NCBI GenBank assembly: GCA_030424975.1
Contig: JAUHVY010000001.1
Location: 1,237,093 to 1,301,092, forward strand
DNA length: 64,000 nucleotides
Direction of reading: 5' to 3'
DNA from: Alphaproteobacteria bacterium
GTDB taxonomy: Bacteria; Pseudomonadota; Alphaproteobacteria; Micavibrionales; Micavibrionaceae
A program made the position numbers and the translations under genes. Below, one piece after another: positions 1,962 through 32,477 of this stretch. The first letter of the stretch is position 1; every line of letters begins with the position of its first letter. The notes below the pieces were generated by a model. The model was given only the letters and a program-made list of their open reading frames with translations. It made no database searches and was not told the origin of the DNA.

Positions 1962-4079
1962 ATGGGTATGTCGGGTATTACAAATATAGCACCAGAAGAG
2001 CATAAAGAGAGCGAGCTGTTAAACGCAGATCATACACAAGCCTCGGCTGCTGCAGAGTTACCTATAGATGAATTGGGAAAACCAGGGTCACCGGAAAACA
2101 TCAGGGATCGTATGGAACGCATCCGTGAAGTGGGACGCGAAAACGCCTATAAACGTGGTGTAAATGAAGTATCAGACGACCCTGTCATCTTTGTTGACCC
2201 CGACAAATTAGATGGTAAAACCCCTGCTGAGCTTGGGCAACAATTATCCGAAATTCTAGATGACTTTCATCCTGATGCAAAAGCTTCACTCCTTGAAACG
2301 ATGAATTCAGACCCGTCTTCGCCACGGACATACACCATTGATGACATCGCCGAAAATCTGTCAACACTTGGGCCGTCGGCATTACCGGAAGTGATTACAA
2401 TTGATGGCGAAACTCATGGTTTGGCGATTGTTCCAAATAATGATTTGGATACAAAAGAAGAGCTTGTCCATGCGTTTTTGGACGATCGTTTTTTTAATGA
2501 AGACCAAGTCAAGGCAATCGTAGATAACATGCCCGGTAGCGATAGGGAGTGGATGCGCATTGTCGGCAACCACGAAGGTGAGCACATGAACACCGGCCGG
2601 CTATATCGTGATACAATTGAAACACTGCAAAATGAAGCTGTTGCAGATGAGGTGGCGATTGAAACAGCGAACGCCAGAAACGATGGCGATGTCGCAGACG
2701 CATTCGAAGATTTACGCGCATTATCGGCCGATCAGCTTGATGTTGAACACTCTACAGGTGCACTCCTACATAGTGGCGATCAAGCTTCGATTGTACATGC
2801 CGAAGTAGCAGAAAGTTATCTCGATATTATGATGGATATTGTCGATAACGACCCCAGTGTTTTAATTTCATCAGATTACGCGCAAGATGTCCTTGAAAAC
2901 GACCCGGAACAATTCTTTGCCATTATCAACAATCACATAGAGACAGAAACAGCAAAAACCTTAGCCGCCTATCAGGCTGATCCGACATCGAACGAAGCTA
3001 TAGGTAATGCTGTTGTTCTGCAAACCTTCACAAACTATGCCAATGATTTCGAAGGTGCATACAGACGCCGTGCCCTTGGTCAAGAAGATTTCCCGAAAAG
3101 CGAACCGACACAATTGGTTCCGCAGGATGTCGAAACGGCATATCATGAATTTGCCAACAAAGAAGCACGCATAGAGCAAGAGCTTACAGAGATTGAATTC
3201 GAGGCCAATCAAGAATTTAAAACAGGCGAACACTTTAACAGTTTTGACTGGGAATCATATGAAGGTGATGCAACTGTATCATATCAATTATATATGAAGG
3301 ACCCGGAAGCATATTATGCACATGTGGAAAACGTATTAGATGATATCCAAGAAGACTTGGTAAAGGCATATAACGAAGATCCATCCTATGAGAACGCAGA
3401 AAATCTCATAAAACTTGAAGCGATATACCAGCAACAGTTTTCTAATAGAGACTATAAGTTAGGGCCTACGTTAGATGGAGAGGTAAGGTCAGAAGCGCCG
3501 GATCTGATTTCAGATGAAGCCACGCGTGCGCACATCGAAGAGCGCATTGCGCGTGAGGATTATGTTCCGGATCCTAATGACCCTAAGGCCTCCACAACAA
3601 CAGTGACCTATGAGAAAGTAGACCCGAATGCTCGCGGCCCGTTTGATCCTAAACCCGTAGAACATGAAGCTCAGCAGGCGAAACCGACAGAATCAGCGAA
3701 TGATCCTGTGCAGAGCCCCCCCGCTCCTGCGGAAAATACACCGCAAAACCCTGGAACACAACAGGGCACGCCGGAACCCGTAGAAGATCAATTATTACAA
3801 CAAGACCTTGATCGCTCATACACGCCAGGCGTTGACGGCACCGCCTATACAACGCAGGTAAATGGGCTGGAGACAGGCGAGCCGAATGTCGATTTCGATA
3901 ACGGCGTAACCGTAGGTGGCATGTCAATGGGTAGTGTTTTTGAACAATCCGCGAATCCAGACCCTGAAAACGTGACCATGGTAAATGCCAAAGTTGATAC
4001 GGCGCCTGAAGTTGACCCTGCCCTATTGGCTGCGCAACAGCAACTGCCGGAAATGAACACTCAAACACTTGGCCGATAA
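1962..4079 (+). CDS. Large acidic protein with gluzincin-like HExxH motif
   Basis: A 705-residue protein with no family I recognise. Residues 204-208 read HEGEH, a zinc-metallopeptidase HExxH motif. Seventeen residues later comes NEAVADE (E225), which looks like the third-ligand motif NEAxSD of thermolysin-type gluzincins. A metallopeptidase role for the first 250 residues is therefore plausible but not proven. The remainder is very acidic and mostly helical. From about residue 560 it becomes a proline-, glutamine- and threonine-rich, low-complexity tail. No signal peptide or membrane segment is seen. It follows the lipoprotein gene by 26 bases and ends at a strong terminator-like hairpin. 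The PENIRDRMERIREV segment near residue 45 resembles the repeat helices of the upstream lipoprotein, which hints that the two products are related or interact. Confidence 0.6.
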   Translation: MGMSGITNIAPEEHKESELLNADHTQASAAAELPIDELGKPGSPENIRDRMERIREVGRENAYKRGVNEVSDDPVIFVDPDKLDGKTPAELGQQLSEILDDFHPDAKASLLETMNSDPSSPRTYTIDDIAENLSTLGPSALPEVITIDGETHGLAIVPNNDLDTKEELVHAFLDDRFFNEDQVKAIVDNMPGSDREWMRIVGNHEGEHMNTGRLYRDTIETLQNEAVADEVAIETANARNDGDVADAFEDLRALSADQLDVEHSTGALLHSGDQASIVHAEVAESYLDIMMDIVDNDPSVLISSDYAQDVLENDPEQFFAIINNHIETETAKTLAAYQADPTSNEAIGNAVVLQTFTNYANDFEGAYRRRALGQEDFPKSEPTQLVPQDVETAYHEFANKEARIEQELTEIEFEANQEFKTGEHFNSFDWESYEGDATVSYQLYMKDPEAYYAHVENVLDDIQEDLVKAYNEDPSYENAENLIKLEAIYQQQFSNRDYKLGPTLDGEVRSEAPDLISDEATRAHIEERIAREDYVPDPNDPKASTTTVTYEKVDPNARGPFDPKPVEHEAQQAKPTESANDPVQSPPAPAENTPQNPGTQQGTPEPVEDQLLQQDLDRSYTPGVDGTAYTTQVNGLETGEPNVDFDNGVTVGGMSMGSVFEQSANPDPENVTMVNAKVDTAPEVDPALLAAQQQLPEMNTQTLGR

Positions 4080-4263: not shown

Positions 4264-4359
4264 TTTTATTCTCAAAAAAAACGCTATCCAATTGATCGGT
4301 TTTTTCGAATACATTTTCGGGAAAAGTCGCAAACGGGGACTAACGAAAATAAATCCTGT

Positions 4360-5478
4360 TTATGCAACACCATCCGGTTCGTGATCATCCTCACTTTCAT
4401 CTTCTTTGAATCCGGGAACTTGCCCTGACAAGATGCCTGCATTTATGCCCATATCAATGTTCTTGGCCTGATCATCATAAAATTCAATGGATTGCCCCTG
4501 CTCCAATGCCATAAAGGCCAATACCTCCAGCACAGGCTGCTTGGGCGCCCCCGCCAGAAAATGGGCAGAGCCGGAAATATCTTCATCCCACTGATACAGC
4601 GTTTCAATTGCGCGCAAGGCGGGGTTATTTCCGCGCGCCGTCACAATTGAAATGGCATATGGTTTATCATCACCGCCATAGCGGTTATTAACGCCATTGT
4701 AATGGTGGAACAACCCATATGCCGGGCCATGATTCATAGGCACATTATGCAGGTTGCGTTCATAGGCATCATATTCTTGCAAACCGTGTTTTTGGAAAAA
4801 CTCTTCTGATGTGCTGTCGAAAACGACGCCGTCCAGATCAAAAACATGATGACCGATAATTTTACCATTAAAGTCTGGACGAATGCTTTGCGGTAAGTTG
4901 CGTTGTATGGCAATAACATCCGCGCCACCGGCGTCTACTTGCACACGCTGAGTTTCTTCTTCTGCTCTGTACAGGGCGACTATATTCCCTGTTGCCGCGT
5001 TCTTACGTTTACCACCCATTTCCGGGTTATTAATAGTCTTGTTTTTCTCCAGATCATAATAGGTAGAAAAGATACCTGCTTTATTTCCTGCCGCTGCGTC
5101 TTTTAGGCTGGCTGTATAGAAATGCTTGATGCCATATGCCTCCAGAAACGGTACGGGCGATTGACCGTTTGTAAAAAACATACGCCCCGGTGTTATCCCT
5201 TCGTTTTGCATTGTAATGATTGCACGGCGTGCCGTAATGGGGCTGTTTTTAGAGCATAAAACGACCTCTTCAAATTCCGGGTTTTCAAAAGCCTGCTTTA
5301 AATGCTTGAACCCGCGCCCTAACGGCAGAGGCTCATCGGCATGTTCACGCATATGCGCAATATAGGCATCTTTGCCCTGCTCGCGGAAAATACGATCGGG
5401 TTCCGACATATCAAACAAGACGCTTGTCGAAATCCCCTTAATCATTTTACCGTGTTCACCATCTATTTTCTTTGCCAT
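4360..5478 (-). CDS. Cytosolic 5'-nucleotidase, cN-I family
   Basis: A nucleoside 5'-monophosphate phosphohydrolase of the NT5C1 (cN-I) type, which releases nucleosides from (d)NMPs in the cytosol. Family features in order: LFDMSEPDRIF near residue 20, the DEPLPLG segment near 48, the SKNSPITARR and FFTNGQSP blocks near 75-110, and a HAD-like nucleophile motif FDLDGVVFD near 213-221. These are followed by IVTARG, FLAGAPK and FYDDQ. The protein has 372 residues, typical for the family. ATG 5478 is chosen because GGAGAG precedes it; an in-frame ATG nine codons upstream has no comparable site. It lies 29 bases after the stop of the giant nuclease gene on the same strand. The pair looks like an operon in which one product makes nucleotides from nucleic acid and the other dephosphorylates them. 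Confidence 0.88.
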   Translation of the reverse strand: MAKKIDGEHGKMIKGISTSVLFDMSEPDRIFREQGKDAYIAHMREHADEPLPLGRGFKHLKQAFENPEFEEVVLCSKNSPITARRAIITMQNEGITPGRMFFTNGQSPVPFLEAYGIKHFYTASLKDAAAGNKAGIFSTYYDLEKNKTINNPEMGGKRKNAATGNIVALYRAEEETQRVQVDAGGADVIAIQRNLPQSIRPDFNGKIIGHHVFDLDGVVFDSTSEEFFQKHGLQEYDAYERNLHNVPMNHGPAYGLFHHYNGVNNRYGGDDKPYAISIVTARGNNPALRAIETLYQWDEDISGSAHFLAGAPKQPVLEVLAFMALEQGQSIEFYDDQAKNIDMGINAGILSGQVPGFKEDESEDDHEPDGVA

Positions 5479-5507
5479 GTTCCGTTCTCTCCATCTCATG
5501 TGCATTC

Positions 5508-8500
5508 TTATGAAACTGTATCCAATTCGGTGACCGGGTCGTCATCAAATGGCTTGCCCGCGCGGCTATATTTACGAATTGGATTCATGAAAAGCTTTGT
5601 TTTCTCTGACAAGGTGGCAAAGTCTTCATGCTCTTTCGTCCATTGCTTAATGGCTTTGAACAATTTCTTTTTCTTCGGATCATCGCCTATATAATGTGCA
5701 AATAATGCGGGATCGCGCTCCAAAGATTCAATCTCTGCTCTGGCTTCAATAAAATGTTGATACGCCAAAAAGGCGCGCATGGCTTCTGTACGCTCAATAT
5801 CGGCTTCATACATATGGTCAGAATCCAGGTCGTATTGAACCTGATTAATCGTGTCCATGGTATCCTCCAGAACATTACGTTCTTTCAGAAGGTCATCATA
5901 AAATTGATTGGCAGATAACGTATCGCCCGCGCGCACAGATTCAACATAATCACGCACAATTTTCGTGACATGACGATAGGCCGAATTCATGCCGACTTTT
6001 GCCCGCATGCGCAAAAGGTTTTGAGCACCGTGCTCAGGACGTGCTGCACGCCCTCCGCCGCTATCGAGCTGTCTTTCCAAATCAGGATATTCATCAGGAC
6101 GACGATAATCATTGTAATATTTCGGTTCATCGCCATCTTTTTCATTTTGTGCGATGCGACCGCTCAGAATGCGCATATCCCTATCGTTCTGCCATGCTTC
6201 GCCGACTTTTTGTGCGATGGTTTTCCATTCATTATGCGGATCAACATAGTTCAAATGGCGTTTAATCAGACCGGCACGACGATCGAGAGTTTCCTTTGGC
6301 ACGCTGCCGTTTGCTTTCACCCTCAGGCCATATCTGGCAGGTACGACAATCGGATTTTGTCGTAAATCTAAAACTTCGAAAACGTCATTATCATAATCAG
6401 CCAGCATTTCGGCTATTTTTGTTGCTGGCAGGTGCAAATAATCATTCGGGTCGTATTTCAGATTAAAAACAACGGCGTAGCGTTCAGAATCCATTGTGCC
6501 GATAAAGGATCCCATTTGTGCCTTTGGGCGTTTGGCCGATGGGCTGACATAGGAAAAGATCGGGTGTGGCCCGTTGAAGCCCATATCCATGCCCATAATA
6601 TCATTGAGCAAATGGCTCGTTGATGAATCGGCATTGATAATCATCTGCTCAACCAAATCAGGCGCGATATCATATTGCTTCCAGAACAAATCCATACATA
6701 AATTTGTATCGTATTGCCCGCCATGCGCCTTCTTCTCATCATAGGCCAGCCCGTTTTCACGCGATAAGCTTTCTAATGTATGGTCCATGAAATCAGAATC
6801 GGTTTTTTTTGCAACACGATATGCCCCCGGGGCATATGCGGCCAAGGCACGTGAAATCGCACGTGTATCAACGGATATTGTTTTATAGGTCTGGTGCAAG
6901 CGTGTATTCGTATCAAGGTTTCGTGCGGATTCCTTTGCAATAAATTTGGAATCAAAACGTTCATTGTGCCAAACAATCAACGCTTTGATATCGTGTCGGC
7001 TAACTTTTCCGCTCTCTGATTTCTTTTCCGCCAAAGCATGTGAGTGTTTTTTCACCTGCGTTAGCGCCGTATTCATGTCATCGACGAATTGTGCTGCGGG
7101 CAGACCGTCACTTAAATCATCCGGATGTGTATTTGTCACAAGCATCGCAATGGGTGATGGCATGCGATAGTTCGGAATTTTTTGAAACAGCTGAACATTT
7201 TCAATTGTTTCTCGTGTATCTACATCTTTGATAGTCAGGGCAAATTCACGCATCAAATGGCGCATAGGTGAAAGCCCGCCCGTCTCCGTATCGGCCGCAC
7301 CAATTGCGTGAATGCCTTTATCAGTGAAGACACCTTGCTTGTATTTATCAATACCAAACGCAATGTCTTGTTTTAAAAAGCCCTGCAGATTTTCAGCATT
7401 AAACGATTTTGATATAGAAACAGGCAAAGAGCGCCCCATTTCAAAATCAGAATTCACTCCCGCAATATCGCGCGCGGTGTTTTCGAATGTATCAACCAGC
7501 TGCGCAACCGCCGACGTAGACACGGGTTTAATCGGCATGACAGATGTTGAAAAGCGCCCTTTCAGATAAAACTTATCACGGGACGGTGTATGGTTGGTCA
7601 CCCCGATAAATTCAGATGGTACGGTACGAAAGAACGAAACTTTTTTACCCCGCTCAATTTTCATCTCCATTGATCCGGTAACCACAGCTGTTTCTGCACC
7701 GAGGTTCTCTGCTATGTCGAGATGGCTCTTTAATTGGTGCGGGCCACCATGCACAGGCAAGATAAACGGAATGCCGGATTCGATAATGCCCCGCTCTACG
7801 CCTTTTGCATTATTATGGCCGGAGCTATGACGAATCATCGGCGGACCGTACGTTTCTTTCTCGGCAAGGTCCTCCATCGCCGCGGCTTCTTTATTGATGG
7901 CTTCTGGCAATATGACATGCGCACCATGGAACATTTCGACATAATCTTTTAATGCCATGCGGCGGAAATAGTTTTCACCTGTAGGGATCACTCCCTGTAG
8001 AGGGGCAATAATATCGTTATTACGGATATTCCAACGATGAGGCGGCAAAGCATCGCGCGCAGCACGATTTAGCGAAGAAAACGCCTCATCCTGTGTTCCG
8101 GTAACGAGCAGCGCATATTCCCCATCACGCGCAGGGTCAGATAATAAAGGTTCGGCTTTAGTCTTCTGAGATTGCATAATAATCTCAACGCCATGGAAAT
8201 CCTTTGCCCATTTTTTCAGGTCATACACTTTATCTGCATCACGAACCAAATCCTCTACGGCCTTACCGTCAATGATTAGCGTTTTCCTGTCCGTTTCCCC
8301 CAACGCAGCAATAAGCGTCCCTAATCGTGTGACATTTGAACCGAGCATGGGGAAGATAAAACGATTATCAGCATAATCGGTGACTGTTTTTACGATATCT
8401 TCGCGCACATCGCCTTCAAGGGTATTTTCCCCTTCGCGAATGGCACCGGTGGAATCCGCACTCATGGAATCGGGTTGATGTCCGCGCATCCAAATATGCA

Positions 8501-10250
8501 GCGGCGGAATACCAAGCTGTATTGTGTCATCCCATTTATAATCTCCGGTATGACGATGTGAACCGGCAGCGGTGATAATGTCATACATTAGCCCCGGGTC
8601 AGAGTGCGGCATCGGTCCGACACGTACATCAAAAACATCATTAATGCGCAAGCGCGGGAAATATTCATATGCCCCCATTTTCTCGCCCGGTTGCACTTCG
8701 GTCCATTGTTCGATTTTTGTGCCCGCAATTTCTGTTTCCTTGGTGGATTCAGGGTTTTGCGGATTTATATCGGTTAATAAATTGATCGGATAACATTTTT
8801 CAAGGATCTCTTCTTTGACGGTGCTTTCTATATCAAGCTCTGACATGTCACGTTTGAGCTGTAACATCGTCATTTCATTCATAATCAGAGGGGGAAGCTC
8901 ATACCCTTTTTTTACAAGGTATGCCAGTTGCCCTAAATGGTCTTTGTGACGGTGGGTAAATAATATGGCACCGACAGGCTCCTCGGGTTTATGTGCTTTG
9001 TCGTATTTGTGATGTAAATATCTGCCGGCATTGAAAAAGGCAACATCAAAGACATCATGGAACAACACCCCTGCATCAATCATCAGTGAGGCGTTTTGCC
9101 GTTCCCCTGCCTCATTAAGGTGTTCATATCCGATGATATATTGGTTTGCACCGATGTTTTGATCTGCTTCGGATACATAAGGCGTTTGATTATTACCGCC
9201 AATAGCAGAAAACGTCATAATGCCCTGTTTGGGGATCGTATGCTTTTCGTTTAAATGCGGGTAAATGCCCGTATAAAGGTTAATGTCAGTCGGCAGCATA
9301 TAACGCCTGTCATGCGGCGGTTTTTTCAAATCATCGATTAATGCCCGATCGCCTGCACGAACCATACGGTTGATATTCCTTACGGCTTTGATCACTGAAC
9401 CGACCGCGCGACTATCGCTCAGATCAATTGCCGCGCCCATATAACGAAGGGATTTAATGCCGGCCTCTTCTTTTGGATTACCTTTATGCGGACGCACCGC
9501 GATATTATAAAGCTCCTCTTCGCGTTGGCCGTCATCATTCTTGATCGTTACCGTACCACTTATATCCAGATGGTTTTCGCTGCTGCCACGCTTGTAGTTA
9601 TAACGAATGATAGAGTTCTGATGCTCTGCGCCTTGGCCAAACAATGTCAAAACACGCGATTGCGGATTTTCATCATTATATTTATGCGGGCCGACACCAA
9701 GAATTGCATGCAAAAATAAAGCCGGATAAACCGGCTCAGAATCAGGAATAGCAATTTTTTCAACAGACGTCTTTATGTCACCGTTTACATACAGCCCCGG
9801 CCAGGCACGCTTGCCGAAATGGCTCCCGTATCCCGCATCCGATATTAACCGCACGGGGTTCACCCACTCATTCTTCGCCATGATTGCTTCGGATAACGGT
9901 TTCGTAATACGCGGCAATGAAACATGGTGTTTATGCTCGCTCATATCTAATTGGCGTCCGTCAATCACGGTGTCTATAATGGTGATTTCTTGATCATTTT
10001 CAACGCAAGACATCGTCAAAAAAGGTACAGTTTCATTCTGTCCGTTGTTTTTATGATGAGAATAAGTAAAGGCCAAATCAAAGCCTTCTGCCGTTTTTTC
10101 GGCCTCAATCATCAATGTTCGGATTTCTCCGGTTTCCAGATCAGTCGTAACTGTGGCAAAGCTCGACTCCGTTGAATTGCGTAGGTGCTCGTGTAAACCG
10201 CGCACACCAAAAGAAGAGAAAAACTCCTCCTTATCGTAGGGTTTTGTCAT
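5508..10250 (-). CDS. RNase J-like MBL/beta-CASP nuclease fused to ExoI-like DEDDh exonuclease
   Basis: A 1580-residue, two-nuclease polypeptide. Residues 1 to about 340 are unassigned. About 340-890 match RNase J: metal motif HRHKDH (433-438), PHS (H549), HTGDYKWD (D570), then the beta-CASP blocks GSNVTR (637-642), TGTQDE (717-722), SGHNN (810-814) and PVHGGPH (832-838). All expected zinc-ligand motifs are present. About 980-1310 match exonuclease I (SbcB): ExoI motif DTET (D987, E989), ExoII HNERFD (1095-1100), ExoIII H1176...D1181, and the SH3-like part around FSYVSP...MGSFIGT and DLRQNPIVVP. The tail (1310-1580) is helical and charged, including a poly-Lys stretch. There is no signal peptide, so it is probably cytoplasmic. 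Known families predict RNA 5'-exo/endonuclease plus 3'-5' ssDNA exonuclease activity; the combined role is inference. Confidence 0.88.
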   Translation of the reverse strand: MTKPYDKEEFFSSFGVRGLHEHLRNSTESSFATVTTDLETGEIRTLMIEAEKTAEGFDLAFTYSHHKNNGQNETVPFLTMSCVENDQEITIIDTVIDGRQLDMSEHKHHVSLPRITKPLSEAIMAKNEWVNPVRLISDAGYGSHFGKRAWPGLYVNGDIKTSVEKIAIPDSEPVYPALFLHAILGVGPHKYNDENPQSRVLTLFGQGAEHQNSIIRYNYKRGSSENHLDISGTVTIKNDDGQREEELYNIAVRPHKGNPKEEAGIKSLRYMGAAIDLSDSRAVGSVIKAVRNINRMVRAGDRALIDDLKKPPHDRRYMLPTDINLYTGIYPHLNEKHTIPKQGIMTFSAIGGNNQTPYVSEADQNIGANQYIIGYEHLNEAGERQNASLMIDAGVLFHDVFDVAFFNAGRYLHHKYDKAHKPEEPVGAILFTHRHKDHLGQLAYLVKKGYELPPLIMNEMTMLQLKRDMSELDIESTVKEEILEKCYPINLLTDINPQNPESTKETEIAGTKIEQWTEVQPGEKMGAYEYFPRLRINDVFDVRVGPMPHSDPGLMYDIITAAGSHRHTGDYKWDDTIQLGIPPLHIWMRGHQPDSMSADSTGAIREGENTLEGDVREDIVKTVTDYADNRFIFPMLGSNVTRLGTLIAALGETDRKTLIIDGKAVEDLVRDADKVYDLKKWAKDFHGVEIIMQSQKTKAEPLLSDPARDGEYALLVTGTQDEAFSSLNRAARDALPPHRWNIRNNDIIAPLQGVIPTGENYFRRMALKDYVEMFHGAHVILPEAINKEAAAMEDLAEKETYGPPMIRHSSGHNNAKGVERGIIESGIPFILPVHGGPHQLKSHLDIAENLGAETAVVTGSMEMKIERGKKVSFFRTVPSEFIGVTNHTPSRDKFYLKGRFSTSVMPIKPVSTSAVAQLVDTFENTARDIAGVNSDFEMGRSLPVSISKSFNAENLQGFLKQDIAFGIDKYKQGVFTDKGIHAIGAADTETGGLSPMRHLMREFALTIKDVDTRETIENVQLFQKIPNYRMPSPIAMLVTNTHPDDLSDGLPAAQFVDDMNTALTQVKKHSHALAEKKSESGKVSRHDIKALIVWHNERFDSKFIAKESARNLDTNTRLHQTYKTISVDTRAISRALAAYAPGAYRVAKKTDSDFMDHTLESLSRENGLAYDEKKAHGGQYDTNLCMDLFWKQYDIAPDLVEQMIINADSSTSHLLNDIMGMDMGFNGPHPIFSYVSPSAKRPKAQMGSFIGTMDSERYAVVFNLKYDPNDYLHLPATKIAEMLADYDNDVFEVLDLRQNPIVVPARYGLRVKANGSVPKETLDRRAGLIKRHLNYVDPHNEWKTIAQKVGEAWQNDRDMRILSGRIAQNEKDGDEPKYYNDYRRPDEYPDLERQLDSGGGRAARPEHGAQNLLRMRAKVGMNSAYRHVTKIVRDYVESVRAGDTLSANQFYDDLLKERNVLEDTMDTINQVQYDLDSDHMYEADIERTEAMRAFLAYQHFIEARAEIESLERDPALFAHYIGDDPKKKKLFKAIKQWTKEHEDFATLSEKTKLFMNPIRKYSRAGKPFDDDPVTELDTVS

Positions 10251-10389
10251 GGTAAATCTCTAAATTTCTAAATCGTTCTCTATTATCAGTAGTAGGAAAT
10301 ATAATATTGCTATGCAACAAATTTTTTACAAAAATTTTTTGTGATTTATTTTTTTGCAAAATTTTGACGAACTGGATATACATCGAGTT
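10251..10389. promoter_or_regulatory. Divergent AT-rich promoter region
   Basis: About 139 very AT-rich bases separate the nuclease-fusion gene (minus strand) from the cyclase-like gene (plus strand). It has long T and A runs and no clear -10/-35 pair I would defend. By position it must hold promoters for both directions, so the two genes may share control. Confidence 0.4.
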
Positions 10390-11463
10390 ATGGAGAACGC
10401 AGCACAATTTCTTAGAAAGCTTGAGGATACGTCAACCGGTTTAGGCAAGACGTTTCAAGGGGTCGGTCTGAACGGGTATATAGCCTCCGCTGTTTTTGTG
10501 GCATCCGATACTACGCCGGGCAGTGTTTTTGCACTTACACATGCAGGCGGAAGCCCCGAACATTTTGCCAGAACGGATAAGCATGTCTATTTACGTCGTT
10601 TCGATTCGCATGACAGCATTGCCGCGCAGGTTTTTGATGAAAACGGTATTTCCATGCACCCGAGCCGTATGTTCCCAAACGAACATTTATGTGTGAACAT
10701 TCCGATAATCCCCAATGGGAAACCTGACGCAGATATTTATTCGCGCGGTATGTTGCAAGTTGTTTTTGGCGCGGATTCAGGCATTGCTTTGCAGGATATC
10801 AAATCACATATCAAAAGCCAGCCGACCTATAAGGCCATGTCAGGAATTCTTGTTCCGATGCTTGAAGACGTTGACGGGAAACGAGATTCATTCTTCAAAG
10901 TACGTGACCCGTATGAAGCAAATGCCGTTGTCATGTATTTTGATATTTCCGACTTTTCCGGACACTCAAGAACATTAGGCGCGTATAGGGCGCAAGATTT
11001 TGCCGATAAATTTTGTCAGGAATATATGAAGCCGTTAAGCGATGAATATGGCGCAAACTTATTAAGATACGAAGGCGATGGCCTATGGCTGGAAATGCCC
11101 TTGGATCAGTATGAAACGCAGGCCGCACGTCAGACGCAAATGGAAAACGCGATAGATATGGCACAACACGCCATTGATGATTTTTCGGACTTCGCGGTTG
11201 ATCAGGATTACGGGTTTAAAGACGCAAAGCTAAAAGTTTCATTGGAGCTTGGGGAAGTAAGAGATTACTTCTGGGATCGGCATAACATACTGCAAAATAA
11301 AGCAAACGATCGTTCCGGACCGGTTTTTTCTAATATTCGCAAGGCGGATAAGACAATCGCGCGCCGTGATCGCCATGATATTATTTTGGGGCCTGAACTA
11401 CGTGCAGTCCTAAATCAATCCGGGATCTATGACATCAGGCCCGATGAATTTAATCACGGGTAG
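10390..11463 (+). CDS. Class III nucleotidyl cyclase-like protein with N-terminal sensor region
   Basis: The C-terminal half resembles the class III adenylate/guanylate cyclase catalytic domain. It has YFDISDF (about residues 183-189) with the first metal Asp, and LLRYEGDG (about 224-231) with the second. A segment GPVFSNIRKADKT sits where the nucleotide-binding Asn/Arg region is expected. The N-terminal 150 residues look like a GAF-type sensor fold, but this is a weak call. The protein has 357 residues from ATG 10390. An in-frame TTG at 10354 would add 12 residues; neither start has a convincing ribosome-binding site. It is divergent from the nuclease/nucleotidase operon across a short AT-rich gap, so a signalling link is possible. 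Which nucleotide it would cyclise, or whether it is active, cannot be told. Confidence 0.65.
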   Translation: MENAAQFLRKLEDTSTGLGKTFQGVGLNGYIASAVFVASDTTPGSVFALTHAGGSPEHFARTDKHVYLRRFDSHDSIAAQVFDENGISMHPSRMFPNEHLCVNIPIIPNGKPDADIYSRGMLQVVFGADSGIALQDIKSHIKSQPTYKAMSGILVPMLEDVDGKRDSFFKVRDPYEANAVVMYFDISDFSGHSRTLGAYRAQDFADKFCQEYMKPLSDEYGANLLRYEGDGLWLEMPLDQYETQAARQTQMENAIDMAQHAIDDFSDFAVDQDYGFKDAKLKVSLELGEVRDYFWDRHNILQNKANDRSGPVFSNIRKADKTIARRDRHDIILGPELRAVLNQSGIYDIRPDEFNHG

Positions 11464-11520
11464 ATTTATACCCTTGGTTGCATTATTACTATATAATTAC
11501 GATGCAAATATGGGGGTGTA

Positions 11521-12399
11521 ATGATGCAGCAAGGTACAAAACATCTGATTATCGGCGTAGTAGCCTTTTTGATTTTATGCCCATCCTTTTATTTATTGTT
11601 AGAGCATTTCATGCATCCGCCTCAGGCCATTGAGCGAGGAGCGACAAAGGACGTTGCCGCAAATGATGCCGCGTATTCAGTAATCCGAGAGCAAACCCCG
11701 ATCACAGATGCCCCCGTCATGGAGGCAACAAACAGATTCCAGAAGAAATACGAAGTTTTACAACAGCCCGATAACACAGGCCTGCGTGTTCCATATTACT
11801 TCTTTGCGCCGGATATGCATGGTGATGATGCGCGTTTGCCTCTGGTTGTTGTTTTGCATGGCGGGCCGGGGCGCGCTTATGCGGCAAAGTTTTTGAGCGA
11901 CCCTGTTATTAATGATCGTTTTAAATCATTCATATTGGTACCGGTTACGCCCAAAGGGAGCGTTTGGAGTAACTATAAGGATCGCCTTTTATTCTCGCGC
12001 CCGGAGGAATTAGCAAATGCCGTCACATTGGTAAAGCGCGCCTTACAACAATACCCGATTAATGAAAACAGGGTTTATATTATTGGATGCTCTCTGGGGG
12101 GTGAAGGTGTCTTCGGAGCGTCAACATATTATGATGACATATTTGCCGCAGGCGTGGCCATCAGCGGTGCATGGCCTGTTTCACGCGCAGAAAACATGAC
12201 GCGCATGCCATTATATATTATGGGCGGAACGAATGACACGGTTATCCCGATTGAGCAAACAAAAGCAATCGCCGAAGCCATAGAAGATGCCGGTGTTGAA
12301 GTGATCTATGAAGAATATGATATGGGACATAATTGCCCATCATATAAATATTATACGAATGACATTTTGGAATGGTTGTTTAGTCATTCTTTAAATTAA
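11521..12399 (+). CDS. Membrane-anchored alpha/beta hydrolase (esterase-like)
   Basis: Serine hydrolase of the alpha/beta fold, in the group that includes feruloyl-esterase and PHB-depolymerase-like enzymes. It starts with a membrane segment (IIGVVAFLILCPSFYLLL), so the enzyme probably faces the periplasm. Catalytic features: oxyanion motif VLHGGPG, nucleophile elbow GCSLGG, acid GGTNDTV, and His in MGHNCPS. A G-rich ribosome-binding stretch (GGGGGTGTA) lies directly before ATGATG; either ATG could be used. The substrate is unknown. It converges with a related hydrolase gene immediately downstream. Confidence 0.78.
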   Translation: MMQQGTKHLIIGVVAFLILCPSFYLLLEHFMHPPQAIERGATKDVAANDAAYSVIREQTPITDAPVMEATNRFQKKYEVLQQPDNTGLRVPYYFFAPDMHGDDARLPLVVVLHGGPGRAYAAKFLSDPVINDRFKSFILVPVTPKGSVWSNYKDRLLFSRPEELANAVTLVKRALQQYPINENRVYIIGCSLGGEGVFGASTYYDDIFAAGVAISGAWPVSRAENMTRMPLYIMGGTNDTVIPIEQTKAIAEAIEDAGVEVIYEEYDMGHNCPSYKYYTNDILEWLFSHSLN

Positions 12400-12431
12400 A
12401 TATAGAAATACCATTCCAAACAGAGCCTCCC

Positions 12432-13247
12432 TCACATCTCCGTTCCCATTAAAACTTTATCCCAGACGCTTGCTTGGGAATATAAAAGATTACCAATGCC
12501 ATGGCCGCGCCCCTTCAGGAATGTCACGGTGATCGGTAAATTCTGCGCTTTCGCAGAAGCCCGTAAACCCGCCGAAAAAGAAGCCGGTACCGCGCCATCA
12601 TTTGTGCCGTGATAAACAAATAACGGTGATTTAATTGATGCAATTTCATTTGGTGACCATGCTCCCGCAGAGGCAATGCCCGCACTGAAAATATCAGAGT
12701 AATTCTGCATGGCGCCAATCACACCTGATCCGCCCATAGAATGCCCTGCAAGAATGATTTTACCGCTATCGATGCTGTAACTTTTTTGAATGTCGTTAAT
12801 CCCCGCGATCACCTGAGGCATATGATCAGGATACGGTATATTGCGCGGCATGCGATACGCCTCGTCCTTTGGGCTCATCCAAAATGCCCGTTTGGGTGCA
12901 ATCGGCACCATCACGAAAAACGGATATACATTACGAAACTTTTCACGCGCCAACTCTTCTGCAGCGTAGCTATGGCTGCTCACGCCGTGCAGGGAAACAA
13001 CCAACGGGTATTTATATTTCGGATTATAATCCTTTGGCACCATCAGAAAATACCGCCCGACAAACGGAAAAGTTGATGACACAGAATAATGCGGCTCATA
13101 CAGATCGGGCGCTTGTTTAATTGTATCGAAACCACGATAGAGATGGGAAAATTCAGAAATGACAAAATAGATCACAATCAAATAAGAAAAGGCAGTTATG
13201 CCCCTATCCATGATACTCGGTTTTTTCTTTTGTTCTTCTTTTGCCAT
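12432..13247 (-). CDS. Membrane-anchored alpha/beta hydrolase, paralogue of the preceding gene
   Basis: Same architecture as the facing gene: a single N-terminal membrane segment (YLIVIYFVISEF), then a hydrolase domain with VSLHGVSS, nucleophile elbow AGHSMGG, acid YHGTNDG, and His in GRGHGIG. It has 271 residues. The two genes are convergent, with about 30 bases between their stops. Shared segment order (HG..., SYAAE/AYAAK, FVMVPIAPK/FILVPVTPK) indicates a duplication followed by inversion. The substrate is unknown; an exported esterase is likely. Confidence 0.75.
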   Translation of the reverse strand: MAKEEQKKKPSIMDRGITAFSYLIVIYFVISEFSHLYRGFDTIKQAPDLYEPHYSVSSTFPFVGRYFLMVPKDYNPKYKYPLVVSLHGVSSHSYAAEELAREKFRNVYPFFVMVPIAPKRAFWMSPKDEAYRMPRNIPYPDHMPQVIAGINDIQKSYSIDSGKIILAGHSMGGSGVIGAMQNYSDIFSAGIASAGAWSPNEIASIKSPLFVYHGTNDGAVPASFSAGLRASAKAQNLPITVTFLKGRGHGIGNLLYSQASVWDKVLMGTEM

Positions 13248-13410
13248 TTAACATTCCTTCCGCAAAGGCGGTACAACCTTAGGGAGATTAGATGACAATC
13301 ACGCCGACGTTAAGTAAAAACAGAACCGACACATTAAAATCCCCTCGCCCGCTTGACCGACTCGAATCCCATGTGCAACAACAAAATGGATGAAAAGGAG
13401 TATTGGTATT

Positions 13411-14241
13411 ATGAAATTCGTGAAATTTTTCTTATTTACAATGTTTATAGGCTTAGCACTCGTCTCATCAGCCCCAACAAATGCAAAAGACATCATGGAT
13501 GAAGAAGAGCTGAACGCGATTCACTTCCCGATTAAAGATTGGAACCAGAACCTTTTACAAATTATCGATGTCGGCCCCAGTGTTTTATCGCGCGACGAAG
13601 AACTTGTCCTGCAGCCATACCCGCAAAACAGCAGTGAAACAACAAAAAAAGAACTAGAATATCTGCTGCACATCGCGAAAACAGAGAGATCAGAAGAAAA
13701 TCTAAAACGTATCGTTTATGAAGATAGTGGCGTGCGCGTTTATACCATTTTCGAAAATGAAGGCCTTATTCCATCTGAAAATTATAAGACGATCAAATTC
13801 CTCAACATGGTTGATAATGACTTCTTGTATTTCACCCTTGCCCTAAAACAACATTTTCAGCGCCCACGCCCAACGCAATTAGCCGTTCCGGTAACAGGTA
13901 CCGAATTAACACGCGTCATTCCCGTTCCCGGGCATGCGGCCTATCCGTCAGGACATGCCGGCCAAACCTATATGGTTGCCCTGGTTCTATCTGAGATCGA
14001 TCCTGAAAACGCAGAAATTTATAAGCAATTTTCAGTTGATGTTGCGCATCGCCGTGAAATCGCAGGCGTCCACTACCCCAGTGACAGTGACGCCGGAAGA
14101 CAACTTGCAAAAGATGTTTTTGCTATTTTCAAAAAAGTGCCGACATTTAATAAAAAACTCGAAGACGTGAAAGCCACATTCGTGAAGCCTGATGCAAAAG
14201 TTATTGAATCAGTAAAAGCATATAAAAGATTGTATGAATAA
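13411..14241 (+). CDS. Secreted PAP2-family (class A acid) phosphatase
   Basis: A periplasmic phosphatase of the PAP2/vanadium-haloperoxidase fold. The signal peptide is MKFVKFFLFTMFIGLALVSS with cleavage near ANA/TNA-KD. The three PAP2 motifs are present: KQHFQRPRP, PSGHAG and RREIAGVHYPSD (catalytic His and Asp). Its length of 276 residues fits bacterial class A non-specific acid phosphatases. ATG 13411 is chosen because AAAAGGAG lies 10 bases upstream; the in-frame ATG 13390 overlaps that site and would add seven charged residues before the signal peptide. Likely substrates are organic phosphate esters or lipid phosphates. Confidence 0.85.
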   Translation: MKFVKFFLFTMFIGLALVSSAPTNAKDIMDEEELNAIHFPIKDWNQNLLQIIDVGPSVLSRDEELVLQPYPQNSSETTKKELEYLLHIAKTERSEENLKRIVYEDSGVRVYTIFENEGLIPSENYKTIKFLNMVDNDFLYFTLALKQHFQRPRPTQLAVPVTGTELTRVIPVPGHAAYPSGHAGQTYMVALVLSEIDPENAEIYKQFSVDVAHRREIAGVHYPSDSDAGRQLAKDVFAIFKKVPTFNKKLEDVKATFVKPDAKVIESVKAYKRLYE

Positions 14242-14244
14242 AAT

Positions 14245-14766
14245 CTATGCAATAACGAGCTGTGGGCGCTGATTTGCTCCTAAATATCCATCTAATCGAC
14301 GCGAGAAATCACGTAAGAAAAGCGCTCCAACCAAATTATGGGTATATGACACTCCCTCTGAAATAACATTGGCTGCTTCGTTAAAATGTTTGCTGTTATA
14401 TTCGCGTAGTTGCCAACCGATACCGTCATTGGCCGCCTCGTCAAATGTTTCTGCGTTTTCACGCACGGCATCCGCAAATGACGCCATATAGTCATCACCA
14501 TCATTTTCAATGCACGATGCCGCCAAATATAATTGCATGTCCGCAATGGTTAATCTGGTGATATCAAGCGACTCATTCAGCGCCGTATCGGCATCTTTAT
14601 CGTATCCGTCAATATATTGCTTAAGGAATGAAGCTTGCGTTTTCTTGCTCTCAATCATTGCATCTTCCAAAATATTTTGCACATCAGCAAAAAACATTTG
14701 GATATGCGCAGGCTGCTGATCCAGGTCATCTACATATTTTTGAAATTTTTCAAACGGATTATCCAT
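14245..14766 (-). CDS. Acidic helical protein of unknown function
   Basis: A 173-residue, acidic, predominantly helical protein with no family I recognise. It has no signal peptide or membrane segment and a single Cys. The start is supported by GCGAGGTAGTGG just upstream of the ATG. It converges on the PAP2 gene with only three bases between the stop codons, and its start faces the CDF transporter gene across about 100 bases. Confidence 0.55.
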   Translation of the reverse strand: MDNPFEKFQKYVDDLDQQPAHIQMFFADVQNILEDAMIESKKTQASFLKQYIDGYDKDADTALNESLDITRLTIADMQLYLAASCIENDGDDYMASFADAVRENAETFDEAANDGIGWQLREYNSKHFNEAANVISEGVSYTHNLVGALFLRDFSRRLDGYLGANQRPQLVIA

Positions 14767-14868
14767 CCACTACCTCGCTAAGCTCTGAGCTATTTAACAT
14801 ATAGCACCTTAGGGGAATGAACAAGTTTTTCGATTTCTATCTCATGTGAAATAACGTATATAAAGAAT

Positions 14869-27276: not shown

Positions 27277-28035
27277 CTAAGATAAATTTTTCCACCTGAC
27301 CTCTCGAATTTTTTCTGTAGCAAAAAACAAACACACTTGGCCAAAAATCAGATATGCAACAAAAACAATTTTAAATATCTCATGGGTTACATCATCGCTA
27401 AAGGCGCTCGTAAACAAAAGACTGGCCAGATACATAAAAATGAAAACCAAACTTAAAAATCTATTTAAATCCCCTGCTGTCGAAAACTTAACTTGCAAAA
27501 ATTTGTAAGATTCTTTGTGAAATAAAACATCAAAAAGACGCTTAATATTTTGTCTCGCAAACGCAAATAATGAAACCGTACATATCATCATAAAAAAGAA
27601 CGCAGACAGCACAATTTGAGGCACTGCAAGATCCACCAGCGCAATACGACTGCTGCTTTTCAAAACCCAAAGACACCAAACCCATATGGCTCTGTCGGCT
27701 TCACTCATATGCATTTTATCGATGTAACCATGATCCAAAAGAAATAATGTGGCAATAAACGGAAATGACATCAAGATTGTCATCTTCACATTCATCATTA
27801 AAAATTCGGGGATCATGGCCTTGGCCTGCGCGGCCTCATCACCTTTTTTGGAGACGCGTTCGATCGACGTATCAATCATTGATCTTACAAATAAAATACT
27901 TATGGCTGTAAACGCAAAAACCCAAAGCCAGAAATAACCATACATGAATGCGGGGATATAGAGAAAGCCAAAGATGACTGTCAGGACAGAAATTATAAAT
28001 GAATTAAGAAAAAATAGACGAATGGCATACAGCAT
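27277..28035 (-). CDS. Multi-pass membrane protein of unknown function
   Basis: A 252-residue protein with about six hydrophobic helices: around residues 10-30, 35-50, 85-105, 135-160, 195-215 and 220-240. No catalytic motif or family is recognised. There is a charged cytoplasmic-type loop at 55-75 (ERVSKKGDEAAQAK). AT-rich codon use fits the surrounding island. A very short frame with a strong ribosome-binding site follows it. Confidence 0.55.
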   Translation of the reverse strand: MLYAIRLFFLNSFIISVLTVIFGFLYIPAFMYGYFWLWVFAFTAISILFVRSMIDTSIERVSKKGDEAAQAKAMIPEFLMMNVKMTILMSFPFIATLFLLDHGYIDKMHMSEADRAIWVWCLWVLKSSSRIALVDLAVPQIVLSAFFFMMICTVSLFAFARQNIKRLFDVLFHKESYKFLQVKFSTAGDLNRFLSLVFIFMYLASLLFTSAFSDDVTHEIFKIVFVAYLIFGQVCLFFATEKIREVRWKNLS

Positions 28036-28439
28036 AAATTTCTCCTAGCTCAGAATAATGGAAGCATATCTTTTGGCTGCTTGTAAATCCCTACATTCCA
28101 ATTCTTATGTATGAATAGATTTATTCAATCATTTTATTAAACTTATGCAGACAGCTTTCAGTTACATGTATTTCGCTCCTGTTCGTTTGTGCATTCGACA
28201 GAATCAACATTATCATCGCGTGCATAGGCGTACGGGCGAAGCCCATCTTGCTAGAGGGATGAAACGGGAGAGCGCAGCATCTCCCTTTCCAAGCGTATTG
28301 TATTACAATACACAGCTTGCGGACGGGGTTAACAACGTTTGATTAAAATAATTGTACTTAAAATATTCTTATGTACGATGGGCTGTTATTATAAAAATAA
28401 CGTCGGCTAACGACCTAAAGCAGACAATAAGCAATATAT
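28036..28439. other. Gene-free spacer upstream of the DUF4262 gene
   Basis: About 400 bases between the membrane-protein gene and the DUF4262 gene. Apart from the left arm of the long inverted repeat (28253-28321) no gene is supported. A 31-codon frame (TTG 28352 to stop 28445-28447) runs into the DUF4262 start, but its length is within chance for AT-rich DNA. Confidence 0.5.
28253..28321 (+). repeat. Inverted repeat, left arm (flanks DUF4262 gene)
   Basis: Begins AGAGGGATGAAACGGGAGAG and ends CACAGCTTGCG. It matches the reverse complement of 28977-29064; the first 43 bases differ at only three positions. It contains its own small hairpin GGGAGA...TCTCCC. Confidence 0.85.
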
Positions 28440-28895
28440 ATGTTTAAACTATTTAAAAAGCAAAACCTGATTAAATCTAATCTTAAATCTTATGGATGGC
28501 ATTGTTGTAATGCATTCGATCCTGAGGGGATTAACTCGAATTTTAGTTATTCTATTGGATTTGAAAGCACGTTTAATCACCCAGAAATTATTATTTTCGG
28601 TTTAGAGGCTGATGTGTCCCATCAAATTCTTAGTGATCTCGCTATTGATATACAAAATGGTGTGACATTTGAAATCGATGCAAAATTGAAAAATGTGATT
28701 GGTGGGGACTACGAAGTGATGTTTAAGGAAGTTAAGGCTGAACATTTCAGTAATTATTTAGGACAGGCGGTTGACCATTACAACAAACCCTTTAGAGCTT
28801 GGGCTCTTCTGTGGCCAGATAAAAACAACACGCTTCCTATTGAAGATAATTGCCTTATAGATGATCAAAATGAAGCACTCAAAATTATTAAATAA
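28440..28895 (+). CDS. DUF4262 domain protein
   Basis: A 151-residue protein matching the DUF4262 pattern: GWHCCNAF near the start, FSYSIGFESTFNHPEIIIFGLE, the helical ADVSHQILSDLAIDIQNG, then YEVMFKEV and the family motif WALLWPDKNN near the C-terminus. No signal peptide; presumably cytoplasmic. Biochemical role is unknown; small DUF proteins of this kind often sit in accessory islands with toxin-immunity genes. It is bracketed by a long inverted repeat, which suggests it can move as a cassette. Confidence 0.8.
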   Translation: MFKLFKKQNLIKSNLKSYGWHCCNAFDPEGINSNFSYSIGFESTFNHPEIIIFGLEADVSHQILSDLAIDIQNGVTFEIDAKLKNVIGGDYEVMFKEVKAEHFSNYLGQAVDHYNKPFRAWALLWPDKNNTLPIEDNCLIDDQNEALKIIK

Positions 28896-28976
28896 TAGAT
28901 ATAATTCTAGGTATGTATAAAACAGCATGTCCGCTTATGGCAGCAAGCAGAATCAAAAAACATAGTTTCTACTGAA

Positions 28977-29064
28977 CGCAAGCTGTGTGTTGTACTACAA
29001 ATCTTCGATTTTTCGTCAACACGCTTGGCAAGGGAGACGCTGCGCTCTCCCGTTTCATCCCTCT
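28977..29064 (-). repeat. Inverted repeat, right arm (flanks DUF4262 gene)
   Basis: Reverse-complement partner of 28253-28321. It differs by an insertion of about 18 bases in the middle (around CTTCGATTTTTCGTC). The outer part is CCCGTTTCATCCCTCT. Confidence 0.85.
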
Positions 29065-29236
29065 GGCCTGATGGTGTGATACGGGAACCAATCCGTTCCA
29101 AACTTTCACCCCATCAAAACGCAAAGCAAAGACCATTTAATCTTCCATCTGCTAAGAACATAATTTCGCGTAGTTATAAATTAATGAATTAAAAATTTTA
29201 TGGTTGTATAGTGTTCATTCAAAATAAGGTTTCTTC

Positions 29237-30742
29237 ATGCCATCAAAAACCAATCAGTATAAAAAAGTATTCTTTTTCATAGCTATTCTTTTTGGCGGTA
29301 CTTTTTTTTATGCTCAAGCCAAAAACTCGATATCCAATAAAACTGGCATTGTTTACCAAGGCGAAAAGTATTCTATCGCGGGTGAGGATACACAAGGATT
29401 TTGCCAACTCATTAATAATCAGCCTTGTAAGAAACATCCCGAACGGGAACTCACTGAATTTGAACTAACGCTTTGCGAAATTAATCAGAATTGCACAGCG
29501 AGCAAAAAAGCATTGCACGCGGTACTTTCAGGTTCTGTCGATTTGGCCAGCGTAGAATCAAAAGATGTGACCCTTGATATGGACGTTAAGGCGCTCATGC
29601 ATCTGACGACGGATCAAAAAATGCTCTTGGTTTCCAGAAAAGATTTCCCGTATGAAGACGGGCTTCAAGTCGTCAAAACCGTGCATGACTTTATTAGCTC
29701 AATCAGGAATAATAAAAACTCGTTTAAAAAGGGGAAAGCCCTGAAAATAGCGCCGGTCTATGGCGGGAGTGATGTGCTTGAACGCTATATCAAATTTGAT
29801 AAGGGGTATGTCCTGCATTCGGGATTGGTAGCGTATTACTTGCCGCGCCTTGAAACCCCCTTAACAATTACAAACGACACTGAAGATTGTGATCCAGATT
29901 ATTGCACCTATGCCTCTTATGTATCTGATGTGCCGAAGGAAGATTATCGTGAGGCAAATCGCATTGCTAAAATGGGAAAAGGCCTCATCCCTTATCTGAA
30001 AGAGGCCATAAAAAGTGATAATGATTTTTTGGTGATGAAGGCCGCCCACGTAATGGGGAGAATATGGCCACGCGAACCCGATCTTTTAACAGCGCCTCTT
30101 CTTGAACTTTTAGACCACCCTAATGACGAAGTAAAAGAGCAAGCCATTTATGCGCTATCCGCACAAAAGCCGCTGCACTCTGAAACCATAGACCGACTAA
30201 TTCAATTGGCAGAAAGCAATCCTATAGAAAGGGAAAGTTTTTCTGACGGAAGTCACAGCATGTCGCAAGAAGTGACCATTCTCAGACAAATGCCGAATAG
30301 TGAGTTTGCAGCATATCGTCTGGCAATCATAGACCAAGAGCGTGTTTTGCCCGCCTTATATAAACTTGCAAGTACTGAAGATCAAAAAAAGCAAACTATT
30401 GGAATTAATGCTATCGGGCAATATCTTAAACGAGAAGTGTATAAAATAACGACGGATATGCCCATTAACGAACGGAGTGATGCAAGAGAAAATGGTTATA
30501 ATTTTTCGCAAAGCGCAAGGGACGCGTTGCGGTTTCTTAAAGAAAATCAGACGCATTTTACAGAGGAGAATAAAAAGAATGTAGAGAGGATTTTGACTTA
30601 CCATCCGATTTCCGATGCTAACATCACTAAGATTCCGATACATTCCCCCTCAACGGCTAAAAATATTGATGCAAAGTCTCGAAAACAAGAAGTATATGAC
30701 TTGCTTTATACATTCAATTTGAATTACAAGACGTGGGAATAA
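29237..30742 (+). CDS. Secreted protein with HEAT-like repeats
   Basis: A 501-residue protein with an N-terminal signal peptide (VFFFIAILFGGTFFYAQA) and two Cys-rich pairs (FCQLI...PCKKH, LCEINQNC) that may form disulfides after export. From about residue 235 there are alpha-solenoid units such as GLIPYLKEAIKSDNDFLVM and LLELLDHPNDEVKEQAIYAL, typical of HEAT repeats. No catalytic motif is seen. AAGG lies upstream of the ATG. Function unknown; a periplasmic scaffold is one possibility. Confidence 0.6.
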   Translation: MPSKTNQYKKVFFFIAILFGGTFFYAQAKNSISNKTGIVYQGEKYSIAGEDTQGFCQLINNQPCKKHPERELTEFELTLCEINQNCTASKKALHAVLSGSVDLASVESKDVTLDMDVKALMHLTTDQKMLLVSRKDFPYEDGLQVVKTVHDFISSIRNNKNSFKKGKALKIAPVYGGSDVLERYIKFDKGYVLHSGLVAYYLPRLETPLTITNDTEDCDPDYCTYASYVSDVPKEDYREANRIAKMGKGLIPYLKEAIKSDNDFLVMKAAHVMGRIWPREPDLLTAPLLELLDHPNDEVKEQAIYALSAQKPLHSETIDRLIQLAESNPIERESFSDGSHSMSQEVTILRQMPNSEFAAYRLAIIDQERVLPALYKLASTEDQKKQTIGINAIGQYLKREVYKITTDMPINERSDARENGYNFSQSARDALRFLKENQTHFTEENKKNVERILTYHPISDANITKIPIHSPSTAKNIDAKSRKQEVYDLLYTFNLNYKTWE

Positions 30743-30899
30743 CATTATTTCACGAATTGAAAACCTGTTCCCATCGCTCTAACATCTCAAATAAGCGGTT
30801 CGAGGTGCCTCCTGATACCTGCCTCAATTTATCTTTCTCACCCCCCTCTTTAAATGCTAAATTCTTCTGCAAAGATAAAAGAACAAGGATGATATTCTT

Positions 30900-31451: not shown

Positions 31452-31481
31452 GCGTTAAAAAATTATAGCCCACCGGCTCGT

Positions 31482-31517
31482 AGCAAGAATGGATGCGAGA
31501 AAGCGGCGGTTCTAAAA
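31482..31517 (+). repeat. 36-bp direct repeat, right copy
   Basis: Second copy of the repeat at 27055-27090 with one mismatch. It is preceded by GCCCACC (31468-31474), the same seven bases that end the tRNA-Val acceptor region, so it may represent a degraded attachment-site copy. Confidence 0.8.
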
Positions 31518-31540
31518 TCACAAAAAGGAAAACCCGCTAA

Positions 31541-31681
31541 ATATCTTACAAGGCATCCCCCCAAGAAAGAAAGTGTACAGAATATTACTCAGACACAACC
31601 TTGCCTACATATGATGGTGGTGGTACAGATTTTAGAAGGTGTTTAGAAAGATGTATAGGGACAAGTGGATGTGCGTTATAA
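31541..31681 (+). pseudogene. Start-less protein tail overlapping the next small gene
   Basis: Open from just after an in-frame stop, with no usable start codon. It encodes about 46 residues that read like a protein C-terminus (YYSDTTLPTYDGGGTD, then FRRCLERC, four Cys in all). Its stop lies 31 bases inside the following gene. This is the layout expected if a toxin C-terminus remained next to its immunity gene, but no toxin family is recognised, and chance cannot be excluded. Confidence 0.3.
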
Positions 31682-31890: not shown

Positions 31891-31924
31891 TACGGCAGGC
31901 ATACCAGCAGGGGGTTAATTGTTT

Positions 31925-32311: not shown

Positions 32312-32477
32312 TAGTAAGTTTTTTTAACCCACTTTGTCGGTTTTTTATGCCTGCGTTTTTCTTTTACCTCAAAGATTAACCAGCCACAACTTGCCCCCAC
32401 CAAATGATCACATTTTTTTGATTTTGCCTGTATTTTGATAGTATCTATATTCTTACAGGTGGCTTAAAAGCATAGTG

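Follow-up and report, generated by a model that had tools for sequence, protein, structure and literature searches.

A single protein joining an RNase J-type unit to an Exonuclease I unit, followed by a 5'-nucleotidase gene, in an alphaproteobacterial order

The window analysed in this study is a stretch of 64,000 nucleotides from contig 1 of genome G000 (positions 1237093-1301092). It carries a gene whose product joins a complete RNase J-type unit and a complete Exonuclease I (ExoI), normally separate enzymes, within a single polypeptide. The 1580-codon fusion frame is present in a single copy in the 2.43-Mb genome, and directly behind it lies a gene encoding a 5'-nucleotidase of the PF06189 family, the first ATG of which is 2 nt past the fusion stop codon (the true start may differ). 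By eye, no signal peptide was seen in the fusion protein, and a scan of the genome contigs with P0001 gave no match. The features of the locus are collected in Table 1.

Table 1. Features of the fusion gene and of the adjacent nucleotidase gene (window coordinates).
Feature	Coordinates	Strand	Basis
Fusion protein gene, 1580 aa	5508..10250	(-)	ORF without internal stop; aligned with 18 full-length relatives
N-terminal module repeat 1, residues 24-131	9858..10181	(-)	hhalign vs repeat 2; beta-rich plus helix in model
N-terminal module repeat 2, residues 195-303	9342..9668	(-)	hhalign vs repeat 1; model
RNase J-type MBL/beta-CASP unit, residues 339-904	7539..9236	(-)	VIA-align Z 35.4, rmsd 2.8, 433 aligned to 3zq4_C; Pfam, NCBIfam and profile matches
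MBL motif HRHKDH, residues 433-438	8937..8954	(-)	HxHxDH complete in 16/19 homologues
SGH motif, residues 810-812	7815..7823	(-)	19/19 homologues
Connector, residues 905-978	7317..7538	(-)	~941-958 of low confidence, pLDDT <50 where both models overlap
Exonuclease I unit (DEDDh, SH3-like and helical domains), residues 979-1546	5613..7316	(-)	Structure alignment, Foldseek, profile
DEDDh residues D987 and E989	7284..7292	(-)	19/19 homologues
DEDDh residue D1100	6951..6953	(-)	19/19 homologues
DEDDh residues H1176 and D1181	6708..6725	(-)	19/19 homologues
PF06189 5'-nucleotidase gene	4360..5505	(-)	Pfam 161.4 bits vs gathering 28.2; DxD kept

As a single sequence, the RNase J part was matched by the Pfam family RNase_J_b_CASP (PF22505) with 29.5 bits against a gathering threshold of 27, and 15 of the 19 fusion homologues were matched by this family at an E-value of 0.01. 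The match to NCBIfam TIGR00649 (E-value of 1.6e-17, 63.1 bits) was far under the 400-bit cut-off, and by this score the part is an RNase J-like unit that would not be filed as RNase J. Also as a single sequence, the ExoI part reached 19.4 bits (E-value of 3.3e-4) against the PRK11779 cut-off of 260, which would make it an ExoI-type unit that is not filed as ExoI; a standalone ExoI from the same order is also below this cut-off (135.7 bits vs 260). The original prediction had suggested profile searches with the separate segments, and profiles of 19 relatives run against the PDB recovered both families, i.e. RNase J 1 at 2.4e-43 and Exonuclease I at 2.8e-24. The genome contains a separate RNase J gene (C1:657621-659222; 371.6 bits with TIGR00649, itself below the 400-bit cut-off), and the fusion is its only frame matched by the ExoI model at an E-value of 0.01.

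From the sequence of the 1580-residue product, an RNase J-like MBL/beta-CASP set and a complete DEDDh set with an ExoI SH3-like region had been proposed. All of the motifs named are present, and a structure prediction, set beforehand as a test, yielded both folds in AlphaFold2 models of residues 1-960 (pLDDT 85.7, pTM 0.84) and 940-1580 (pLDDT 82.2, pTM 0.82). The RNase J part was aligned best with RNase J1 (Z of 35.4, Table 1), while the beta-CASP proteins ranked next, of CPSF and FttA type, gave Z of at most 25.1 (CPSF-73, 24.6); the alignments with the long RNase J chains (3zq4, 7wnt, 4xww and 3t3n, 529-550 residues) stop at residues 449-466. The ExoI part was aligned with 4rg8 and 1fxx (Z of 25.8, rmsd of 3.6-3.7, 444 and 447 residues aligned, respectively) at a sequence identity of 16-18%, and its Foldseek match had an E-value of 1.6e-16, whereas other DEDDh enzymes reached Z of at most 16.6 and RNase T 14.4-15.9 across about 170-200 residues. 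Both folds, predicted with good confidence, thus fit RNase J and ExoI, respectively, clearly better than any other family, and the proposed identity of the two enzymes is supported.

Since the ExoI alignments span residues 40-607 in the model (41-607 with 1fxx, which has 459 residues), corresponding to 979-1546 in the protein, only about the last 35 residues fall outside this unit. The original prediction had recognised nothing in the first 340 and the last 270 residues and had supposed that substrate-loading domains may be hidden there. For the C-terminus this was rejected, as the last 270 residues are by structure alignment mostly ExoI itself, mainly its helical domain; at the N-terminus, the module found there may be such a loading domain.

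The first ~330 residues carry a duplicated module of ~100 residues, the two repeats of which were aligned by hhalign with a probability of 89.9 and an E-value of 1.7e-6 (profiles of 9 rows each, all from the window's clade). The profile of the N-terminal module gave no sequence match in the PDB (best E-value of 0.61), and no fold match was obtained with the 960-residue model, whose fold search was filled by RNase J and barely probed residues 1-335. In a draw of genomes from the class, this profile matched 3 out of 385 (G000, G062 and the distant alphaproteobacterium G358), and in a draw from the phylum 1 out of 398 (G000); both draws are samples, and fusions without the module would escape them. 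The duplicated module probably grips the substrate, or gives the dimer contact that is normally made by the C-terminal domain of RNase J.

The same domain order in other genomes had also been named as a check, and 18 further intact frames were found within the order. The fusion is thereby present as a single frame (1542-1636 codons) in 19 of the 142 genomes of the order, and in a twentieth carrier (G114) it is broken across two contig ends; the carriers belong to 13 of 54 genera in families f1, f2 and f7. Homologues within the order are not split near residue 900, given the 19 intact frames and the interruption of G114 by contig ends. The 18 other intact fusions are 20-56% identical to the window protein, and the mean column identity across the 19 homologues is 36%. 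Both active sites are retained at this divergence: H549, D570, S810-G811-H812 and H834-G835 of the RNase J part, as well as the five DEDDh residues of the ExoI part (D987, E989, D1100, H1176 and D1181), are identical in all 19 homologues. The exceptions concern the HxHxDH motif, in which H433 is replaced by E in G113 and G112, and the residue at D437 is undetermined in G042; because H433 is missing, the RNase J site may be changed in G113 and G112.

Phylogenetic trees of the two parts placed all 19 fusions together, with support of 97/98 for the RNase J part and 99/98 for the ExoI part. In both trees the fusions are split into the same two main clades, with inner forks differing in places (G000, G073 and G085), and since both trees hold them together in this way, the fusion probably arose once and its halves probably descended jointly from this event. 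The RNase J part branches apart from canonical RNase J, and the ExoI part forms its own clade, apart from E. coli SbcB and from standalone ExoI proteins of this order. In the class draw of 385 genomes, the matches listed included no fusion beyond the order, only those of G000 and G062, both in-order; the matches were sorted best first and a very diverged fusion could hide below those listed.

No fusion was found in 122 of the 142 genomes of the order (some of them incomplete, down to 62%, which may turn a few absences into gaps), and therefore its function is dispensable. Within genera its occurrence is patchy, e.g. 1 out of 12 genomes in g1, 1 out of 10 in g42, 1 out of 3 in g6 and 1 out of 7 in g8. 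It is present in all five genomes of genus g23 (Micavibrio), which shares family f1 with the window genome and is a different genus. One of these carriers (G082) is taken as Micavibrio aeruginosavorus ARL-13, a cultured predator. By eye, the neighbours of the g23 fusions resemble housekeeping genes, and one was identified as PrmA by Pfam. Searches of plasmids gave one RNase J-like match (query 549-877) and no fusion, no relatives were found in viral contigs or phage records, and matches in PHROGs were to exonuclease and metal-hydrolase families only.

Standalone relatives of both halves were also observed. The standalone ExoI of family f5 adjoins a gene for class II DAHP synthase in two loci (L032 and L034), with gltX and trmJ further along in L032, and in L033 an NAD synthase gene is located two genes off. 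The g50 fusion comes after genes for DAHP synthase and NAD synthase, gltX and trmJ, which is suggestive of a common starting place and is too loose to build on. Standalone RNase J-like paralogues (labelled GGNN), distinct from canonical RNase J, are located at L028 (8576-10195), L029 (4385-5983), L030 (8675-10264), L031 (5509-7107) and L083 (1314-2960). These relatives of the RNase J part (7 rows) come from families f3, f5 and f6 of the order and from two other genomes of the class. In three of the five loci (L030, L031 and L083) the next genes resemble flagellar flgK/flgL by eye, and the SGH motif is PSHA in the three f3 members and PAHA in G046.

In G358, the sole genome of its order in the sample, the parts of the fusion are encoded by two neighbouring genes on the same strand, 58 nt apart. 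The upstream gene (1168 codons) encodes the N-terminal module together with the RNase J part: a one-sequence comparison gave 2e-39, and when every frame of 12 loci was searched, the N-terminal profile matched it at 1.6e-11 and the RNase J profile at 7.2e-18. The downstream gene (1118 codons) was matched by the ExoI profile at 2.1e-30, an assignment that rests on a profile built here, and searching this gene against Pfam gave no match at an E-value of 0.01. Genes that are adjacent in one lineage and fused in another are a common sign of a shared job, which argues for functional linkage of the two units. Just upstream of the split genes, a 142-codon frame (L120, 7508-7936) is weakly similar to repeat 1 (E-value of about 1e-3, two-sequence test) and may be the N-terminal module as a separate small gene.

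The PF06189 gene is located directly downstream of the fusion in six genomes of six genera, i.e. the window's genome, G055 and G073 (4-base overlap), and G062, G093 and G118 (spacing of 12-33 bases). The DxD motif was kept in all 19 aligned nucleotidases. Across the order, 29 of 142 genomes had a PF06189 match. Among the 20 fusion carriers there were 16 (no match in G042, G032, G072 and G112), compared with 13 among the 122 other genomes, the latter comprising 11 genomes of family f3 plus G035 and G089. Fisher tests of this association gave p-values of 4e-10 and, without f3, 1e-14; they ignore kinship, and the within-genus counts are preferred. In the six genera containing both kinds of genome (g1, g6, g8, g15, g32 and g42; 36 genomes, some incomplete), PF06189 is present in 5 of the 6 genomes with the fusion and in none of the 30 without it.

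The nucleotidase tree was built with 19 sequences of 18 genomes among these 29; G082, G089 and nine of the 11 matching f3 genomes were not included. In it, the fusion-adjacent genes group with those of G029 and G047; this part of the tree broadly resembles the window clade in the fusion trees. The nucleotidase genes of the Micavibrio clade, g50 and G037 lie at other genomic sites, away from the fusion, and are part of a different PF06189 branch, which is also present in G035, a genome without the fusion, and therefore the partner link is firm for the window's clade only. The nucleotidase as a universal partner of the fusion was not upheld. Within the window's lineage, its position right behind the fusion suggests that the parts probably form one breakdown line. 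In G055, two nucleotidase genes of the adjacent type were observed (L023, 6163-7236, and L136, 1951-3012), one by the fusion and the other elsewhere.

RNase J starts at 5' ends and ExoI at 3' ends, and the 5'-mononucleotides that both families release are what cytosolic 5'-nucleotidases act on; therefore the likeliest machine is a two-ended exonuclease feeding the nucleotidase. We consider it fairly probable that the fusion protein is a cytosolic, single-chain, two-ended exonuclease, from which, in the window's clade, 5'-mononucleotides pass to the nucleotidase, with nucleic acid recycling as its likeliest role. In such a scheme, the RNase J-type unit would work from the 5' end of a single-stranded nucleic acid, perhaps with internal cuts, and the ExoI unit would start at its 3' end. 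Both would yield 5'-mononucleotides, and the following nucleotidase would convert 5'-NMP/dNMP to nucleosides. We infer in this way the activities, their polarity, the substrate (RNA, ssDNA or both) and the hand-over of products; the ExoI unit would point to ssDNA and the RNase J unit to RNA. Nucleic acid disposal and recycling as an accessory trait is the most likely role, proposed with less certainty than the enzymology, and in Micavibrio prey nucleic acid would be the natural source. A pure feeding role is weakened because strain ARL-13 is reported (PMC3189940) to be without known nucleotide transporters and to have full nucleotide synthesis. A more far-reaching version, which we put forward only tentatively and regard as doubtful, would see here a new enzyme class, namely a two-ended shredder of RNA and ssDNA (5'->3' beta-CASP plus 3'->5' DEDDh) with a duplicated, hitherto undescribed loading module and a dedicated nucleotidase that receives its products, by which Micavibrio-type predators and their relatives would turn incoming prey or phage nucleic acid into nucleosides.

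The recycling nuclease and its alternatives overlap in their enzymology; what sets them apart is the role or the substrate, and their likelihoods need not sum to unity. In an anti-phage module, the fusion would destroy phage nucleic acid and the nucleotidase would drain nucleotides. The patchy occurrence within genera is in keeping with this, as is the position of the window pair next to tRNA-Phe, in an interval reaching to a cation transporter gene (4264-14868) for which the same-genus genome G003 has 4.7 kb of different genes before the transporter (one comparison). Moreover, the PADLOC candidate model PDC-S08 matched the nucleotidase at 1.8e-49, and a DEDDh model and an RT-associated SbcB model matched the ExoI part at 4.6e-7 and 2.3e-5, respectively. 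However, the PDC-S08 match may merely mean PF06189, and according to PMC10855318 the PDC models are unvalidated guilt-by-embedding candidates, with PDC-S08 evenly split between resistant and susceptible strains. Five other neighbour proteins (two in the window and three in L082) had no PADLOC match, and the presence of the fusion in all g23 genomes, in a setting that looks housekeeping-like by eye, together with the finding of no relatives in viral contigs or phage records and no fusion on plasmids, makes an anti-phage function unlikely. An enzyme of RNA-only turnover, i.e. a specialised RNase J whose DEDDh tail is active on RNA, would agree with the stronger of the two profile matches (2.4e-43 for RNase J vs 2.8e-24) and with the inclusion in the DEDDh group of RNase T, which also matches. 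The C-terminal half, however, fits ExoI over its full length with a much higher Z than RNase T, and a separate RNase J gene is already present in the genome; such a restriction to RNA seems quite unlikely.

A role in DNA repair or recombination would make the fusion an equivalent of RecJ plus ExoI, performing 5'->3' and 3'->5' single-strand excision, and its beta-CASP unit would act on DNA. ExoI belongs to the enzymes of DNA repair, and no other frame of G000 is matched by its model at an E-value of 0.01. An archaeal aRNase J is reported to team up with RecJ homologues in survival of DNA damage (PMC10470531). Yet the fusion-free f1 relatives had, among the matches listed, one match each, always to the RNase J part, and no ExoI-type frame at an E-value of 1e-20, and the partner gene encodes a nucleotidase, not a repair protein, so we regard this role as very unlikely. 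As for an assembly or frame artefact joining two genes, the sole point in its favour is the existence of the split relative in G358, against which stand the 18 further intact frames elsewhere, diverged to 20-56% identity with the window protein; with 19 single-frame carriers among 142 genomes, this explanation was refuted and its chance is practically nil.

Compared with known systems, the fusion is similar to RNase J (RNase J1/J2, beta-CASP) in its MBL plus beta-CASP fold, metal-site residues and SGH motif. It differs from it in the duplicated N-terminal module ahead and ExoI behind, in the separate branch of its RNase J part and in the coexistence of a separate RNase J gene; the structure alignments did not extend to the C-terminal domain of RNase J. 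With Exonuclease I (SbcB) it shares the DEDDh residues and the DEDDh, SH3-like and helical domains, but its unit is only 16-18% identical, is C-terminal in a larger chain and forms its own clade. The neighbour gene resembles the PF06189 family in score and DxD motif, and is here genetically tied to a nuclease. A further parallel, the RecJ3/4-aRNase J complex of Haloferax volcanii (PMC10470531), also joins an RNase J-type unit to exonucleases of another type, but is composed of separate polypeptides, contains RecJ instead of ExoI and is archaeal. No published description of an RNase J-ExoI fusion protein was found in the open literature, most subscription journals being outside the search. The parts are known; as far as searched, there is no earlier description of their combination, of the duplicated N-terminal module, of the tied nucleotidase or of the split form. 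Two kinds of exonuclease with opposite expected polarity, one from a family tied to RNA decay and the other from a family tied to DNA repair, have remained joined in a single polypeptide, with both active sites retained, despite deep divergence. A testable pathway is offered by the split version together with the tied nucleotidase, and since the cultured predator M. aeruginosavorus ARL-13 carries the gene, a part in predation is directly testable.

Several further observations were made in the surroundings of the pair. No repeats of the tRNA-Phe 3' end were found in the window with exact ends of 15, 18, 20, 25 and 30 bases. The gene at 10354-11463 has a match in only 1 of the 12 genomes of the genus, its own. 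The region 1962-4079 encodes a fast-evolving 705-aa protein of unassigned function, which gave no PADLOC match and has matches in 8 of the 12 genus genomes including its own, the others being 29-57% identical. The region 28001-34000 is of low G+C content (0.35-0.41 vs about 0.45), contains small unassigned frames and is perhaps foreign DNA. Finally, the convergent genes at 11521-12399 and 12432-13247 appear, by eye, to encode related alpha/beta hydrolases.
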